64,000 nucleotides of DNA, taken from Dyadobacter sandarakinus. Lineage in GTDB: Bacteria > Bacteroidota > Bacteroidia > Cytophagales > Spirosomataceae. The notes below the pieces were generated by a model. It saw only the letters and a list, made by a program, of their open reading frames with translations, made no database searches and was not told where the DNA came from. Shown here piece after piece: positions 55,166 to 61,206 of the stretch. The translations under genes were made by a program, and so were the position numbers. Where the stretch lies: assembly GCF_016894445.1 (NCBI RefSeq), contig NZ_CP056775.1, positions 1,490,001 to 1,554,000 of the forward strand. Direction: 5' to 3'. Numbering within the stretch: the stretch's first letter is position 1; each line of letters starts with the position of its first letter.

Positions 55166-56548
55166 ATGCAACACTACGATGCGATTGTAATTGGCTCTGG
55201 CCAGGCCGGTACTCCCCTTTCCAAAAAACTGGCCAACTCCGGTTTAAAAACAGCATTAATTGAAAAAAGGTGGGTGGGCGGTACCTGTGTAAATGATGGG
55301 TGCTCCCCTACCAAAGCCATGATTGCCTCTGCCAAAGCAGTGTGGGTATCCGAAAACAGTGCCCGGCTGGGTGTACTCGTGGAACATGCGCATGTTGACT
55401 TTCCTTCCATCATCAAGCGAAAAAACGAGATCGTAACCCGCATGCGGGAAAACTCCGAAAAAGGAATTCTGGAAACGGAAAACCTGGATCTGATTTACGG
55501 CACGGCGGCATTCTCCGGTATGAAGCAGGTAACGGTCCAGCTGCAAAGCGGAGAAGAACAGGTGCTCACTGCCGACCGCATTTACATCAATACAGGACTG
55601 AAACCGGAAGTTCCTGACATTCCCGGCATCCGGGACATTGAATTTCTTACATCTACTTCAATCATGGAGCTGGATACTGTACCCGAACACCTGCTTATAC
55701 TCGGCAGCGGGTATATCGGTCTTGAATTCGGGCAGATGTTCCGGAGGTTTGGCAGCAAAGTGACGGTTATTGAGCCTTCCGCACGCATATTAAAGCATGA
55801 AGAGGAAGATATTGCGCAGAATATTGCGGACATCCTTTCTCTGGAACACATCGACATTCTGGTAAAAACAGAAGTAATGTCGCTCGCCCGCCAGGGTGGT
55901 CTGATCTGTGCCACATTGCATTCCGATGGAAGTACACGGGAGGTACAATGCACGCACGTACTGGTGGCTGCCGGCCGCGAGCCGCAGACACCCGCACTGA
56001 ACCTGGAAATGACGGGTGTTAAAACAGATGAAAAAGGCTATATTACGGTCAATGACCAGCTTGAAACCAGCACAGAGGGCATTTACGCGCTGGGCGATGT
56101 CAAAGGCGGGCCTGCATTTACGCACATCGCATTTGACGATTACCGCATTATTTATGAAAACATGGATAAGCCGGGCAGCAGATCGGTGCAGGACCGCCCG
56201 GTACCTTACTGCATGTTCATCGACCCGCAGCTCGGACGTGTAGGCATTACCGAAACTGAAGCGAAGGAGAAAGGAATGGATGTAAAAGTAGCAGTGCTCA
56301 AAAATGAAAGCGTTGCCCGCTCCATAGAAACCGGCGATGAACGCGGGATGATGAAAGCTGTGGTTGACGCCTATACCGGGCAGATTCTGGGAGCATCTAT
56401 CCTGGCAGAACAGGGCGGGGAGATCGTTACGATCCTTCAGATGGCAATGATGGGCGGAATTACCTACGATCAGATCATGAACAGTGTCTTTGCACATCCT
56501 ACCTACGCCGAGTCACTTAATAATCTGTTCTCAACACTTGAAAAGTAA
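55166..56548 (+). CDS. Pyridine-nucleotide disulfide reductase (mercuric-reductase-like), possible ergothioneine-pathway partner
   Basis: The 460-residue flavoprotein has VIGSGQAGTPLSKKL (FAD), the redox-active pair CVNDGC (Cys41, Cys46), an NADPH Rossmann segment ILGSGYIGLEFGQMF and YALGDVKGGPAFTHIAFDDYRI (second FAD motif). The dimerisation domain ends with HPTYAE (His-x4-Glu, the catalytic pair of disulfide reductases). It lacks the extra C-terminal Cys pair of mercuric reductase and lacks MerA N-terminal HMA domain, so a small disulfide is a more likely substrate than mercury. Only 12 bp separate it from the ABC ATPase gene of the EgtUV-like importer. By context it could keep ergothioneine or its cysteine precursor reduced; this is inference. 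Confidence 0.88.
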   Translation: MQHYDAIVIGSGQAGTPLSKKLANSGLKTALIEKRWVGGTCVNDGCSPTKAMIASAKAVWVSENSARLGVLVEHAHVDFPSIIKRKNEIVTRMRENSEKGILETENLDLIYGTAAFSGMKQVTVQLQSGEEQVLTADRIYINTGLKPEVPDIPGIRDIEFLTSTSIMELDTVPEHLLILGSGYIGLEFGQMFRRFGSKVTVIEPSARILKHEEEDIAQNIADILSLEHIDILVKTEVMSLARQGGLICATLHSDGSTREVQCTHVLVAAGREPQTPALNLEMTGVKTDEKGYITVNDQLETSTEGIYALGDVKGGPAFTHIAFDDYRIIYENMDKPGSRSVQDRPVPYCMFIDPQLGRVGITETEAKEKGMDVKVAVLKNESVARSIETGDERGMMKAVVDAYTGQILGASILAEQGGEIVTILQMAMMGGITYDQIMNSVFAHPTYAESLNNLFSTLEK

Positions 56549-56560
56549 TAACACAGATGC

Positions 56561-57529
56561 ATGGCTTCCAGCATGATCGTTGCCGACAACGTCAGCAAGC
56601 ATTTTGGCCTGATGGCCGCAGTGGAAAACGTTTCCTTTGAAGTAAAAGCGGGCGAGATCATGGTGCTGCTGGGCACCAGCGGATGCGGGAAAACCACAAC
56701 GCTTAAAATGCTCAACAGGCTGATCGATGCTACGTCCGGGACGATCACCATCGACGGTCGGGATATCAGAACGCGCAATCGCGAGGAGCTCCGGCGCAGC
56801 ATTGGCTACGTATCCCAGCACCACGGATTATTTCCGCATTACACTGTTGCTGAAAACATTGGCATTGTGCCCGGACTTGCCGGGTGGAACAAGGCTGAGA
56901 CTGCCCGTAAGACAGGTCACTGGCTCGAACAGCTCCGGCTCCCGTCTGACATGTACGGCAGCAAGTACCCCGACGAGCTCAGCGGCGGCCAAAAGCAAAG
57001 GGTTGCACTGGCGCGGGCACTTGTGGCGGAGCCACCGCTCCTGCTGATGGACGAACCTTTCGGCGCGCTCGATCCCGTGACCCGGATTGCTGTCAGGAAT
57101 GAATTTCTGGCCATACAGCAGGTAAAAAGCAAAACCATTGTGCTCGTCACGCACGACATACAGGAGGCTTTTGCACTTGGCAATACGATTTGCCTCATGC
57201 ATGAAGGACGCATTGTCCAGGCTGGAAGTGCACATGACCTGATGTTTGACCCCGCAAATGCATTTGTTGCAAATTTCTTTGATCACCAGCGCTATATGCT
57301 CGAACTGAGTGCGCTCAGCTTGCGCGATATCTGGCAGCAATTACCACCGGGAGAAGGATCGACTACTTCAAAGCTAAGCATTGCCAGCAGTCTCTGGGAT
57401 GCGCTGGATGTACTCTCCGGCAGGGAAAGTGCTGCTGTACAGGTGGCTGATCCCGCAGGCAAAGATGTAAGAGGGCTTACGTTTTCGCACATTCTCGAGG
57501 CTTACAGTCGTATCAAAAATGAATATTGA
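56561..57529 (+). CDS. ABC importer ATPase of the OpuC/EgtV type
   Basis: The 322-residue ATPase has Walker A GTSGCGKTTTLK (near 34-45), Q-loop YVSQHHGLFPHYTV, signature LSGGQKQR, Walker B LLLMDEPFGALDP and H-loop VTHDIQEAFALG. This matches the glycine betaine/choline/ergothioneine importer class. The C-terminal 75 residues (about 245-322) look like one degenerate CBS-like unit instead of the two in OpuCA. It energises the permease/binding protein encoded next, whose ATG at 57529 overlaps its TGA by one base. A quaternary-amine betaine such as ergothioneine is the likely cargo from context. Confidence 0.9.
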   Translation: MASSMIVADNVSKHFGLMAAVENVSFEVKAGEIMVLLGTSGCGKTTTLKMLNRLIDATSGTITIDGRDIRTRNREELRRSIGYVSQHHGLFPHYTVAENIGIVPGLAGWNKAETARKTGHWLEQLRLPSDMYGSKYPDELSGGQKQRVALARALVAEPPLLLMDEPFGALDPVTRIAVRNEFLAIQQVKSKTIVLVTHDIQEAFALGNTICLMHEGRIVQAGSAHDLMFDPANAFVANFFDHQRYMLELSALSLRDIWQQLPPGEGSTTSKLSIASSLWDALDVLSGRESAAVQVADPAGKDVRGLTFSHILEAYSRIKNEY

Positions 57530-59118
57530 TGGAAGAAACGCAAACACTCTGGCAGTTTATGCAGCAGCAGTCCGACAAGCTGTGGGACCAGGTACTGGCG
57601 CACGTCGGCCTTACTTCCATTTCACTGTTCACAGCCGTGCTGGTAGGACTGCCGCTCGGCATCCTGATCGCGCGCTGCCAGAAACTTGCCTGGATCATCC
57701 TTGGCATAGCTGGCATATTGCAGACAGTCCCGAGCATCGCGTTGCTGGGATTTATGATACCATTACTCGGCATAGGCATGTTGCCCGCCATCACGGCCTT
57801 GTTCCTCTACGCCCTCCTGCCCATCATCCGGAACACGTACACGGGCATTACGGGCATTGATCCCGCAATTACCGAATCGGCGCGGGGACTGGGTATGACC
57901 AGCCGCCAGATCCTCACGCGCGTTGAGATTCCGCTGGCACTGCCTGTAATCCTGGCGGGTATCCGCACGGCGACCGTGATCAATGTAGGCGTAGCCACGC
58001 TGGCGGCGTATATAGCGGCGGGAGGCCTGGGTGAGTTCATCTTCGGCGGAATTGCATTGAACAACACCAATATGATCCTGGCAGGAGCCATACCCGCAGC
58101 TTTGCTGGCCATTCTTTTTGACTTCCTGCTATCGCATTTGCAGCAGATGAATATCCGCAAATCCCGGCTTGTGGCGGCAGCGCTGCCGGCTTTGCTGCTG
58201 ATTCTCTCCTCCTGCTACCTGCTCCCTTATTCGGGAAGTGGATTGCTGGGCGGGTTCACGCCGGAGTTCATGGGCCGGGAAGACGGGTACCTGGGCCTGA
58301 AAAGTAAATATGGCCTCGCGATTCCCGTCGTCGTCATCAGTGACGCCGTCATGTACAAGGCAGCCTACGAAAAGAAGCTCGACGTGATCAGCGGGTATAG
58401 TACGGATGGTCGCCTCAAAGCATACGATCTTGTGACATTGGAAGACGACCAGCATATTTTCCCTCCCTATTATGCTGCCCCGCTGGTGCGTACAGCTGTT
58501 TTGAAAAAATATCCCGGGCTGCAACCCGTCCTCGAAATGCTCTCGGGGCAGATTGATGACGCCACGATGACAGAGCTGAACTACCGTACCGACGTCAAAA
58601 AACAGGCGCCTGAACAGGTAGCACGTGACTTCCTGCGGTCAAAAGGACTACTGAAACCGGCACGCTCCGGCCATGCAGGGCAAATCAGGATCGGGTCGAA
58701 GATTTTTGGTGAACAGTACACCCTGGCGGCTATGTACAAAATGCTGATTGAAGGGTACACAGACCTTCAGGTAGTCACCAAGACGGGACTGGGCGGTACC
58801 AAGATCTGCTTTGATGCCTTGACAAACGGAGAGATTGACCTCTATCCCGAGTATACCGGCACAGGCCTTCTGGTGATCCTGAAACCCCGGCCTGCCGAGC
58901 TCGCCAGGGTCATGGGAGACCGGGACAAGGTATTTGAATATGTCAAAAATGAGTTTTCAAGGCAGTACCAGCTGCAGTGGCTGCGCCCGATCGGGTTCAA
59001 CAATGCATATGCGCTGATGATGCGCCGAAAACAGGCACAATCCTTTAAGCTGAATACGATATCGGATCTTAAACAATATGCATCGAATGACAACCACAGA
59101 GATCGGTCAGGCTTATAG
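57529..59118 (+). CDS. EgtU-like fused permease and binding protein with circularly permuted binding domain
   Basis: The 529-residue protein starts at 57529 (MEETQTLWQF). Residues about 20-205 are a six-helix OpuCB-type permease with an EAA loop (ESARGLGMTSRQIL, 116-129). A further helix (about 212-232, holding a lipobox-like LSSC) is followed by an OpuC/ProX-type binding domain in swapped order. First, residues 243-376 correspond to the usual C-terminal half (FTPEFMGREDGYLGL, YSTDGRLKAYDLVTLEDD, FPPYYAAPLV). Next, residues 386-517 correspond to the usual N-terminal half (IRIGSKIFGEQYTLAAMY, NGEIDLYPEYTGTGLL, IGFNNAYALMMRR, TISDLKQYA). The tail SNDNHRDRSGL overlaps egtB. This would import ergothioneine or a related betaine, with the binding domain outside the membrane. 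Confidence 0.88.
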   Translation: MEETQTLWQFMQQQSDKLWDQVLAHVGLTSISLFTAVLVGLPLGILIARCQKLAWIILGIAGILQTVPSIALLGFMIPLLGIGMLPAITALFLYALLPIIRNTYTGITGIDPAITESARGLGMTSRQILTRVEIPLALPVILAGIRTATVINVGVATLAAYIAAGGLGEFIFGGIALNNTNMILAGAIPAALLAILFDFLLSHLQQMNIRKSRLVAAALPALLLILSSCYLLPYSGSGLLGGFTPEFMGREDGYLGLKSKYGLAIPVVVISDAVMYKAAYEKKLDVISGYSTDGRLKAYDLVTLEDDQHIFPPYYAAPLVRTAVLKKYPGLQPVLEMLSGQIDDATMTELNYRTDVKKQAPEQVARDFLRSKGLLKPARSGHAGQIRIGSKIFGEQYTLAAMYKMLIEGYTDLQVVTKTGLGGTKICFDALTNGEIDLYPEYTGTGLLVILKPRPAELARVMGDRDKVFEYVKNEFSRQYQLQWLRPIGFNNAYALMMRRKQAQSFKLNTISDLKQYASNDNHRDRSGL

Positions 59119-60244
59119 CCGTGTACGAACTTACTCCGAACAAATCTGCGAACCTCTTGAAACCGAAGACTACGTACCCCAGCCCGTTGCATTTGTAAGT
59201 CCGCCAAAGTGGCACCTGGCGCATTCTACATGGTTTTTTGAAACATTTATACTGAAAAACCTGGTCCCGAACTACAAAGTATACGATCCCGATTTCAACT
59301 ACCTTTTTAACAGTTATTACAACAACATAGGCGAACGTACCATCCGTACCGACAGGGGAAATGTTACACGCCCCACCACCCGGAATGTGTACGCCTATCG
59401 CAAATACGTGGACGCCCAGATGCTCGAACTGCTCGACGAGCTCGCCGATCCTGCCGCACTGGCAATGGTAGAGCTCGGGCTGCACCACGAGCAGCAGCAC
59501 CAGGAACTGCTGGTTACCGATATCAAGTACATTCTGGGCCACAACCCGCTTTTTCCTGTATACAGGCCGGGCTGCAACCTGGTAGACGGCACCAACCCGG
59601 CTACCGGTTGGGAGCAAATTCCGGAGGGTGTATATGAGATAGGTCATGAGGGACCGGGATTTTGTTTCGACAATGAGCTGGGCCGCCACAAGGTGTACCT
59701 CCATTCGTTCGAGATCAGCCGGGCGCTGGTGACCAATGCAGAGTACATTGATTTTATCAATGCAGGCGGCTACCGCGACTTCAACCTCTGGATGGACGAA
59801 GGTTGGTCGTGGGTCACGCACAGCAATATTGCCGCGCCCATGTACTGGTACCGGCAGGACGGTGAATGGTACTACTACACCCTCGACGGGTTCAAAAAGA
59901 TCAACCCTGAGGCACCGGTTGCGCATATCAGCTTCTACGAGGCCTCCGCTTATGCCCAGTGGAAAGGCATGCGCCTGCCTACCGAATTTGAATGGGAGAT
60001 TGCGTCGCAAACCATTCCGTGGGGGCTACGCTGGGAGTGGACCAACAGCGCATATCTTCCATACCCCGGATTCAGCAAGGCACCGGGAGCGGTGGGCGAG
60101 TACAATGGTAAGTTTATGATCAACCAGATGGTACTGAGAGGAGCCTCGGTGGCTACGTCACCTGGACACAGCCGATTTACTTACCGCAACTTTTTTCACG
60201 CCCACGAACGCTGGCAGTATACCGGCATCCGTTTGGCCCGATAA
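59078..60244 (+). CDS. egtB: Ergothioneine synthesis protein EgtB (non-haem iron sulfoxide synthase)
   Basis: Start at 59078, or 59087 (MTTTEIGQAY); both lie inside the permease gene end. The 388-residue protein has an N-terminal DinB-like helical bundle with the iron ligands His49 (HLAHSTWF) and His137/His141 in the HHEQQHQE motif, and a C-terminal FGE-sulfatase-like domain (about 185-388, MRLPTEFEWEIAS, YRNFFHAHERWQYTGIRLA). The enzyme joins trimethylhistidine to cysteine or gamma-glutamylcysteine through a sulfoxide. No EgtA or EgtC lies nearby, so direct use of cysteine is plausible. egtD follows 11 bp downstream. Confidence 0.92.
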   Translation: MHRMTTTEIGQAYSRVRTYSEQICEPLETEDYVPQPVAFVSPPKWHLAHSTWFFETFILKNLVPNYKVYDPDFNYLFNSYYNNIGERTIRTDRGNVTRPTTRNVYAYRKYVDAQMLELLDELADPAALAMVELGLHHEQQHQELLVTDIKYILGHNPLFPVYRPGCNLVDGTNPATGWEQIPEGVYEIGHEGPGFCFDNELGRHKVYLHSFEISRALVTNAEYIDFINAGGYRDFNLWMDEGWSWVTHSNIAAPMYWYRQDGEWYYYTLDGFKKINPEAPVAHISFYEASAYAQWKGMRLPTEFEWEIASQTIPWGLRWEWTNSAYLPYPGFSKAPGAVGEYNGKFMINQMVLRGASVATSPGHSRFTYRNFFHAHERWQYTGIRLAR

Positions 60245-60255
60245 CAAAACCCACT

Positions 60256-61206
60256 ATGTCAGATTCTACCTTCGCCCGTGACATTCATACGGGCCTTTCT
60301 GCCGCGCAGAAGTATATCTCGTCCCGATACTTTTACGACGATGCAGGCAGCGTTATTTTCCAGGAGATCATGCAAATGCCCGAGTACTACCCTACCCGGT
60401 CCGAGTTTGAGATTCTTTCCATGCAAAGTGACAAGATCATTGCAAAGCTGGATTTTCAGCAACCCTTTAATATCGTTGAATTCGGAGCGGGTGACGGCAT
60501 GAAGACCCGGCAGCTGCTTAAAAAGCTGATTGATCAGGACGCTGCATTTTCCTATATGCCCATTGATATTTCCAGGAAAGCGATTGACGAGCTGGAAGCC
60601 AGCATGCTGCAGCATTTGCCGCAGCTGAAAATCCGGTCAGTAGTGGGCAACTACTTTTCAGTGCTCGAAACCCTTGCCGGGGATGATACGCCCAGCCTGT
60701 TCCTGTTTTTGGGAGGAAATATCGGTAACTATGAAGACGCCGAGGTGCATGACCTCATGCGGGCATTTGGTAAAAGTATGAAGCCCGGTGACAAGTTGCT
60801 GACAGGGTTCGACCTGCGCAAGAATCCTGCCCTGATCCGCAATGCCTACGACGATCCTGCCGGAATCACCAAAAGGTTTAACATGAACCTGCTGCACAGG
60901 ATGAACCGGGAACTTGGCGGCAACATCGTTACCAGCCAGTTTGACTTTTACTCATTTTACAATCCCGTAAACGGGGAGGTAAGAAGTTACCTGGTCAGTC
61001 TTGCGAAGCAAAGGATACACCTGTCGCGCATGGATAAATGCTATGATTTTGAAGCCAATGAGCTGATCTCGACGGAACTTTCGCGGAAGTACACCCTTCC
61101 TGAAATTGAGGCGGTAGCCGCGGCAACCGGGTATGGTGTTGTGGAGCATTTCCTGGATTGCAGGCATTACTTTACCGATAGTCTTTGGGTAAAAAACAGC
61201 ATGTAA
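60256..61206 (+). CDS. egtD: L-histidine N-alpha-methyltransferase EgtD
   Basis: The 316-residue SAM-dependent methyltransferase has the EgtD signature: YFYDDAGSVIFQEIMQMPEYYPTRSE (25-50), the SAM loop FGAGDGMKTRQLL (76-88), FLGGNIGNYED, and ISTELSRKY (271-279), where Glu274 and Ser276 match the residues that hold histidine in mycobacterial EgtD (Glu282, Ser284). It trimethylates histidine to hercynine, the first step of ergothioneine synthesis. It is the last gene of the run and converges with the response regulator gene. Confidence 0.94.
   Translation: MSDSTFARDIHTGLSAAQKYISSRYFYDDAGSVIFQEIMQMPEYYPTRSEFEILSMQSDKIIAKLDFQQPFNIVEFGAGDGMKTRQLLKKLIDQDAAFSYMPIDISRKAIDELEASMLQHLPQLKIRSVVGNYFSVLETLAGDDTPSLFLFLGGNIGNYEDAEVHDLMRAFGKSMKPGDKLLTGFDLRKNPALIRNAYDDPAGITKRFNMNLLHRMNRELGGNIVTSQFDFYSFYNPVNGEVRSYLVSLAKQRIHLSRMDKCYDFEANELISTELSRKYTLPEIEAVAAATGYGVVEHFLDCRHYFTDSLWVKNSM

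Follow-up and report, generated by a model that had tools for sequence, protein, structure and literature searches.

A permease-fused, circularly permuted binding domain of the OpuCC/ProX/EgtU family encoded beside ergothioneine genes in Dyadobacter sandarakinus and other Bacteroidota

Genetic organization of the locus

The window analysed here, a 64,000-nucleotide stretch of the Dyadobacter sandarakinus contig NZ_CP056775.1, encodes a subunit of a putative ATP-binding cassette (ABC) importer in which a permease is fused to a substrate-binding domain with its two halves in swapped order. The gene lies in an open frame on the forward strand (57526-59118) that opens with TTG and encodes 530 residues. 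Its start is likely to be the ATG at 57529, giving a protein of 529 amino acids; this codon overlaps by one base the TGA that ends the ATPase gene. Genes at the locus are ordered oxidoreductase, ATPase, permease/binding domain, egtB and egtD (Table 1), and the first ATG of egtB lies inside the transporter gene.

Table 1. Features of the transporter locus in window coordinates. Residues named for the binding domain follow the numbering of the window protein.
Feature	Position	Strand	Evidence and remarks
FAD/NAD(P)-linked disulfide-reductase-like oxidoreductase	55166..56548	+	Often heads the same cluster in relatives
ATP-binding subunit	56561..57529	+	PF00005; best NCBIfam match is the betaine/proline/choline (ProV) family
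Fused permease and circularly permuted substrate-binding domain	57529..59118	+	529 amino acids plus stop; open reading frame, Pfam, phmmer
Permease domain BPD_transp_1, PF00528 (P0001 residues 41-207)	57646..58146	+	E 5.6e-22
Extra helix, model residues 209-231	58153..58221	+	AlphaFold2 model
Binding-domain C-half, now first	58243..58656	+	Equals EgtUC chain residues 139-276; E247, R251, Y291, Y315
Short linker, old C-terminus to old N-terminus	58657..58686	+	phmmer alignment boundaries
Binding-domain N-half, now last	58687..59085	+	Equals EgtUC chain residues 9-135; K392, T425, Y443, T446, N493, Y495
egtB, ergothioneine sulfoxide synthase	59078..60244	+	TIGR03440, 535.8 bits (cut-off 360); DinB_2 and FGE-sulfatase domains
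egtD, histidine-specific methyltransferase	60256..61206	+	PF10017, E 8.9e-95; TIGR03438, 280.4 bits, just below cut-off 290.9

Circular permutation of the binding domain

The Pfam family OpuAC (PF04069) matches the transporter frame twice, with profile positions 117-256 preceding positions 2-113 (protein E-value 5.6e-60), and no internal stop interrupts the frame. In a phmmer search against the Protein Data Bank (PDB), both halves aligned to one EgtUC chain, query residues 240-377 to its residues 139-276 and query residues 388-518 to its residues 9-135 (E-value 4.6e-60). Together, the halves account for every part of the EgtUC domain exactly once, which makes the binding domain a circular permutant of the OpuCC/ProX/EgtU family and rules out a partial duplication. 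The layout is also distinct from a rotation of the N-C-TM chain (N and C denote the halves of the binding domain and TM the permease), as the order has changed within the binding domain itself. Across 121 permuted loci, the linker between the swapped halves has a median length of three residues in hidden Markov model coordinates (range -1 to 11).

The original prediction, made from the sequence of the window, had placed a permuted domain at 58250-59118, in agreement with the boundaries found here, and the translation contains all of the motifs that it quoted, in the same order. Aligned separately to a solved structure, as it had suggested, each half maps once to EgtUC with the order reversed. 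EgtUC itself has the N-half before the C-half, the order that the prediction gave for ProX/OpuCC-type proteins. The proposed cut between TISDL and the PEF-REDGY segment is upheld both by the alignment of the halves to EgtUC and by comparison of permuted domains.

EgtU/EgtUC of Streptococcus pneumoniae (PDB 7txl, 9egi; PMC9732360) is the closest PDB sequence family to the window protein. Both fuse a permease to a binding domain of the cluster F-III Tyr-cage type, but the domain order is N-C in EgtU (chain residues 9-276) and C-N in the window protein. OpuAC of Bacillus subtilis (PDB 2b4m, 2b4l) has the same fold chain order as the window domain, but is only 14-16% identical to it in structure alignments and has a Trp-based cage (PMC9732360) in place of the Tyr cage; 2b4l, 2b4m, 3chg and 5nxx were all absent among the 34 PDB sequences listed by phmmer at an E-value of 0.001. 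OpuA (OpuABC) of Lactococcus lactis (PDB 7ahh, 7ahd) is 18% identical over the match, and by sequence only its permease part was matched (7ahc).

A natural circular permutant that still binds its ligand is also known from Treponema pallidum, namely TpMglB-2 (Tp0684), for which tethering was raised as a possible reason for the permutation (PMC4990184). Unlike the window domain, TpMglB-2 has a Type I, cluster B sugar-binding fold and a different cut, and is described as a lipoprotein. The window domain falls outside cluster B: OpuAC is the sole Pfam binding-protein family matched at an E-value of 0.001, and the closest solved relative belongs to cluster F. The unpermuted N-C-TM transporters of Bacteroidota contain the same three modules as the window protein, but with the binding domain first and its halves in the usual order (mean identity to the window binding domain, 36%).

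Distribution

Frequencies of the permuted form were estimated from four samples, covering the order, the phylum and the phyla of two non-Bacteroidota loci (L155 and L146), in which most genomes lack any OpuAC match; permuted genomes in the order and phylum samples were counted by eye from the listed coordinates. The order sample comprises 241 genomes, 58 with an OpuAC match, and 53 of these 58 (window genome included) carry the swapped pair in reading order. The remainder consists of one genome with swapped halves in broken frames (G387), two with the usual order (G146, G456) and two with weak matches only (G491, G317). In G387 (C29:78832-79668), the permuted domain is spread over three short frames, reflecting either a pseudogene or a sequence error. 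Five of the six sampled genomes of the same genus contain the swapped pair. The phylum sample contains 15 permuted genomes (window included) among the 67 with a match, out of 296.

There is practically no probability that a misassembly or pseudogene explains the swapped order. The frame in the window is intact and the same order is found in five other genomes of the genus and in dozens of independent assemblies; recurrence of the pair in the 53 order-sample genomes excludes chance or local misassembly, and conservation in independent genomes rules out this explanation as a whole. The swap is a real and conserved feature that predates the genus.

Among the 67 frames first examined (repeats included), 42 are TM-C-N, 24 are N-C-TM and one is C-N at a contig edge; removal of identical sequences leaves 40 permuted and 23 unpermuted. 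The usual fused form in the Bacteroidota relatives examined is N-C-TM, with the binding domain preceding the permease. Five comparators (L157-L161) from three Bacillota, Fusobacteriota and a cyanobacterium are instead TM-N-C.

Spread, but not frequency, is shown by 79 loci of named genomes, which come from 594 candidates that were ordered by their similarity to the window protein and cut to the best 80. All are permuted (78 TM-C-N and one split). They include Dyadobacter, Mucilaginibacter, Pedobacter, Chitinophaga, Chryseobacterium, Sphingobacterium, Spirosoma, Hymenobacter, Fulvivirga and Lewinella, with the nearest named relatives, at 75% identity among the matches listed, being Dyadobacter. 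Surveying homologues across Bacteroidota, which the original prediction recommended, hence finds the swap to be widespread in the phylum. Two of the 79 loci lie outside it, one from Chthonomonadaceae (L146) and one from Phycisphaerae (L155). In the samples of their phyla, the permuted form is carried by two genomes (G525, the source of L155, and G559, the source of L186) among 70 with a match out of 246 in the phylum of L155, where G717 is ambiguous across two contigs, and two (G526, G893) among 26 with a match out of 121 in the phylum of L146.

Evolutionary origin

In an initial 98-row tree of binding domains, and likewise in a separate permease tree, the permuted Planctomycetota/Armatimonadota rows did not group with the permuted Bacteroidota rows. 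In a tree of 106 binding domains, built after thinning near-identical rows, skipping some duplicate loci and dropping the long row L176, the 32 permuted rows of Bacteroidota form one clade (support 99/95). The other four permuted rows (L155, L186, L146, L226) fall in a six-row clade (99/96) with the unpermuted L168 and L170, in which L168 and L186 are sisters (100/87). A separate second permuted group therefore exists in Planctomycetota/Armatimonadota. The cut site is identical in both groups, the domain ending just after TISDL and a helix and starting before A-G/A-F-x-x-E-F.

Most likely, the swap had two or more origins at one and the same site. The alternative is a single ancient swap, with the unpermuted proteins near or among the permuted ones being reversals. 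It draws some support from the position of L168 and L170 inside the six-row group and from the approximately unbiased (AU) test, which does not reject a single clade of the four non-Bacteroidota permuted rows (p 0.366). A single clade of all 36 permuted rows is nevertheless rejected (log-likelihood 49.6 lower, AU p 0.00465), and this arrangement was ruled out; the 36-row group was defined by domain order and not by tree, and the earlier trees were already known when the test was run. The Bacteroidota rows also form their own clade, and the unpermuted lineages that sit between both groups would require several reversals. We consider the single swap unlikely. An N-to-C junction above the median length as a sign that L168 itself is a reversal was rejected, many unpermuted proteins having equally long gaps.

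There is an even chance that nature has opened the chain repeatedly in the loop after TISDL: independent events in Bacteroidota, in Planctomycetota/Armatimonadota and, much earlier, in the OpuAC lineage would each have produced a binding domain with a chain that starts in lobe 2. If true, comparison of L168 with L186 or L155, which are 59-68% identical per part, would offer a nearly direct view of the domain before and after the swap. With their halves in opposite order, L168 and L186 are 66% identical in the N-half, 60% in the C-half and 68% in the permease; the L155 domain finds its match in the L168 genome in two pieces of swapped order, at 64-65% identity. The unpermuted Planctomycetota binding protein at L168:1246-2349, with halves 60-66% identical to L186, makes a close natural before-and-after pair.

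The permuted domains of L155 (7379-8332) and L186 (6013-7191, minus strand) are separate proteins with an anchor-like hydrophobic N-terminal stretch; they appear to be membrane-anchored and are encoded near ATPase and permease genes. L155 has a further 224-residue frame between the permease and the binding protein.

The original prediction also proposed that tandem duplication of the domain followed by loss of the outer halves would produce the swap. This route is plausible, but the intermediates that it implies (N-C-N or C-N-C) occur in none of 270 open frames with a domain match, a weak test as the loci were chosen for having matches.

Ligand pocket

Pocket positions were taken from the EgtUC numbering of PMC9732360 and mapped by the phmmer alignment. 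The window protein keeps the equivalents of K242, T275, T296, N339, Y341, E375, R379, Y419 and Y443, in common with EgtU, and differs at three positions, with F (F394 of the window protein) at G244, Y (Y443) at F293 and F at Y337. In its own numbering, the cage is formed by Y291, Y315, Y443 and Y495, with N493 at the base and K392 and R251 for the carboxylate. This is the Tyr-cage pattern of ProX/OpuCC (cluster F-III), for which PMC9732360 lists four aromatics, an asparagine at the cage base and a lysine or arginine for the carboxylate. The ligand-cage residues are drawn from both swapped halves.

The equivalents of E375, Y443, T275, T296 and N339 are invariant in 55 permuted domains (window included), as are the F, Y and F substitutions at G244, F293 and Y337. 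Other equivalents are kept in 54 (R379), 54 (K242), 53 (Y341) and 44 (Y419) domains, while the position of Y291 is S or F in 11 and that of Y495 is F in two. High ergothioneine affinity has been tied to G244 and a Y-to-F switch at position 293 (PMC9732360). F at 244, Y at 293 and F at 337 are the states of the glycine-betaine-binding AfProX (PMC9732360). Judged by these residues, the pocket is ProX-like rather than EgtU-like. The EgtU/OpuC-like label of the original prediction is hence sound as a statement of sequence kinship, EgtUC being the closest PDB family, but is not proof of the EgtU substrate. The ligand is, with high probability, of a betaine-like class.

Ergothioneine neighbourhood and physiological role

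A cluster of oxidoreductase, ATPase, permuted transporter, egtB and egtD, as found in the window (55166-61206), recurs among loci L077-L155. Neighbours were counted only at loci with flanks of 4 kb or more on both sides, which retained 67 of the 79 named permuted loci, 12 of 14 permuted phylum-sample loci and 17 of 19 unpermuted N-C-TM loci. Among the 67, both egtB and egtD are present in 46, the oxidoreductase in 39 and the ATPase in 63. Both egt genes accompany 8/12 permuted phylum-sample loci versus 4/17 unpermuted ones. A strong EgtD match occurs in 15/15 permuted genomes of the phylum sample versus 77/281 others (Fisher p 1e-8) and in 22/23 N-C-TM genomes (p 2e-11), both p values ignoring phylogeny; 55 of the 92 EgtD-bearing genomes have neither fused form. 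Given the strong co-occurrence of the unpermuted form with EgtD, both layouts may serve ergothioneine metabolism.

The oxidoreductase reached no NCBIfam cut-off among the 25 matches listed. It carries a CVNDGC pair in the window and, speculatively, might act as a reductase for ergothioneine disulfide or a related thiol. At L143 (Chitinophaga sp. E66), the ATPase, transporter, egtB and egtD are split over several frames, which may reflect sequence errors and not decay.

Gene context favours a ligand of the ergothioneine pathway and the pocket favours one of the glycine-betaine type. Overall, there is not quite an even chance that the transporter is linked to ergothioneine metabolism, with ergothioneine or hercynine as its ligand. 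It is possible, if somewhat doubtful, that it is a dedicated ergothioneine importer, equivalent to EgtU by function, in a make-or-import ergothioneine cluster: EgtUC is the closest solved relative by sequence, and the egt genes accompany the permuted loci, and EgtD both fused forms, at the frequencies given above. The F and Y that replace the G244 and F293 determinants in all 55 permuted domains, together with F at Y337, follow the AfProX pattern instead.

We regard as rather doubtful the proposal that the protein is a general importer of compatible solutes (glycine betaine, choline or carnitine), with a coincidental or regulatory egt neighbourhood. Its AfProX-like pocket, which has four tyrosines and carries F at the equivalents of G244 and Y337, would suit this role. 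Among NCBIfam families, the binding domain matches the glycine-betaine protein OsmF best, albeit at 128.7 bits and far under the cut-off of 400, and the ATPase matches ProV best (TIGR01186, 276.9 bits, under the cut-off of 326.6); loci of Hymenobacter, Spirosoma and Larkinella lack egt genes in the stretch covered. Recurrence of the egt neighbourhood in Mucilaginibacter, Pedobacter, Chitinophaga, Chryseobacterium, Sphingobacterium and Dyadobacter speaks against the proposal, as does the placement of the egt genes upstream in some loci and downstream in others, which makes chance a hard explanation.

Predicted structure and mechanism

An AlphaFold2 model of the permuted order predicts one two-lobed domain (predicted local distance difference test score 93.1, predicted template modelling score 0.89). 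The view that such an order is structurally tolerable thus finds support in this prediction. EgtUC was not a full-length Foldseek match and was absent among the 50 VIA matches listed; this is expected because these aligners follow chain order, and is not counted against kinship.

On this model, the gene product would be one subunit of an ABC importer with a functional permuted periplasmic binding domain. The chain would have been opened within the second lobe, where the helix following TISDL gives way to the strand beginning A-G-F-x-x-E-F, and the old ends joined through the short linker, so that both lobes and the ligand cage are rebuilt from the swapped halves. The rebuilt domain could close on a quaternary ammonium ligand and pass it to the permease. 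In the model, the helix at residues 209-231 may act as a membrane anchor linking permease and binding domain, with the tether attached via lobe 2 and not lobe 1, as in the OpuA layout. Docking to the symmetric permease dimer would presumably be unharmed by the permutation, and the permuted protein probably supports transport.

Very probably, this is a working circular permutant of an OpuCC/ProX/EgtU binding domain in an ABC importer; the swap, its conservation and the full set of cage residues are observed directly. Several points weigh against this interpretation and the roles drawn from it. The fold was predicted from alignments that contained only permuted rows. Not every member of the genus carries the transporter, as one sampled genome coded under it (G423) lacks any OpuAC match. 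The G244 and F293 features of high ergothioneine affinity are absent; the co-occurrence with EgtD follows phylogeny and its p values are uncorrected for kinship; and no egt genes were found in the covered stretch of the Hymenobacter, Spirosoma and Larkinella loci. Finally, the second permuted group has only four rows, within which the AU test does not separate gain from reversal (p 0.366).

Implications

Natural permutation of binding proteins is already known. We found no description, within open-licence literature, of a Bacteroidota transporter of the EgtU, OpuCC or ProX type that is permuted, nor of a permuted EgtU/OpuCC-type domain fused to a permease and recurring at one site, which is not proof of absence. 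Entries for iNicSnFR and iAChSnFR were among the phmmer matches in the PDB. As these relatives of the fold already serve as sensor scaffolds, the natural permutant may be useful there.

Natural permutations are often recognised only between proteins of low similarity, which makes their history hard to read; the permuted betaine-binding set, for example, shares less than 24% identity (PMC2395249). Here, permuted and unpermuted domains are roughly 35-50% identical (about 64% in one case), share the same ligand cage and are available from dozens of genomes, among them many of named strains. Counting the presence or absence of PF04069 overlooks the swap. The finding also draws attention to a conserved transporter encoded beside ergothioneine genes in Bacteroidota.
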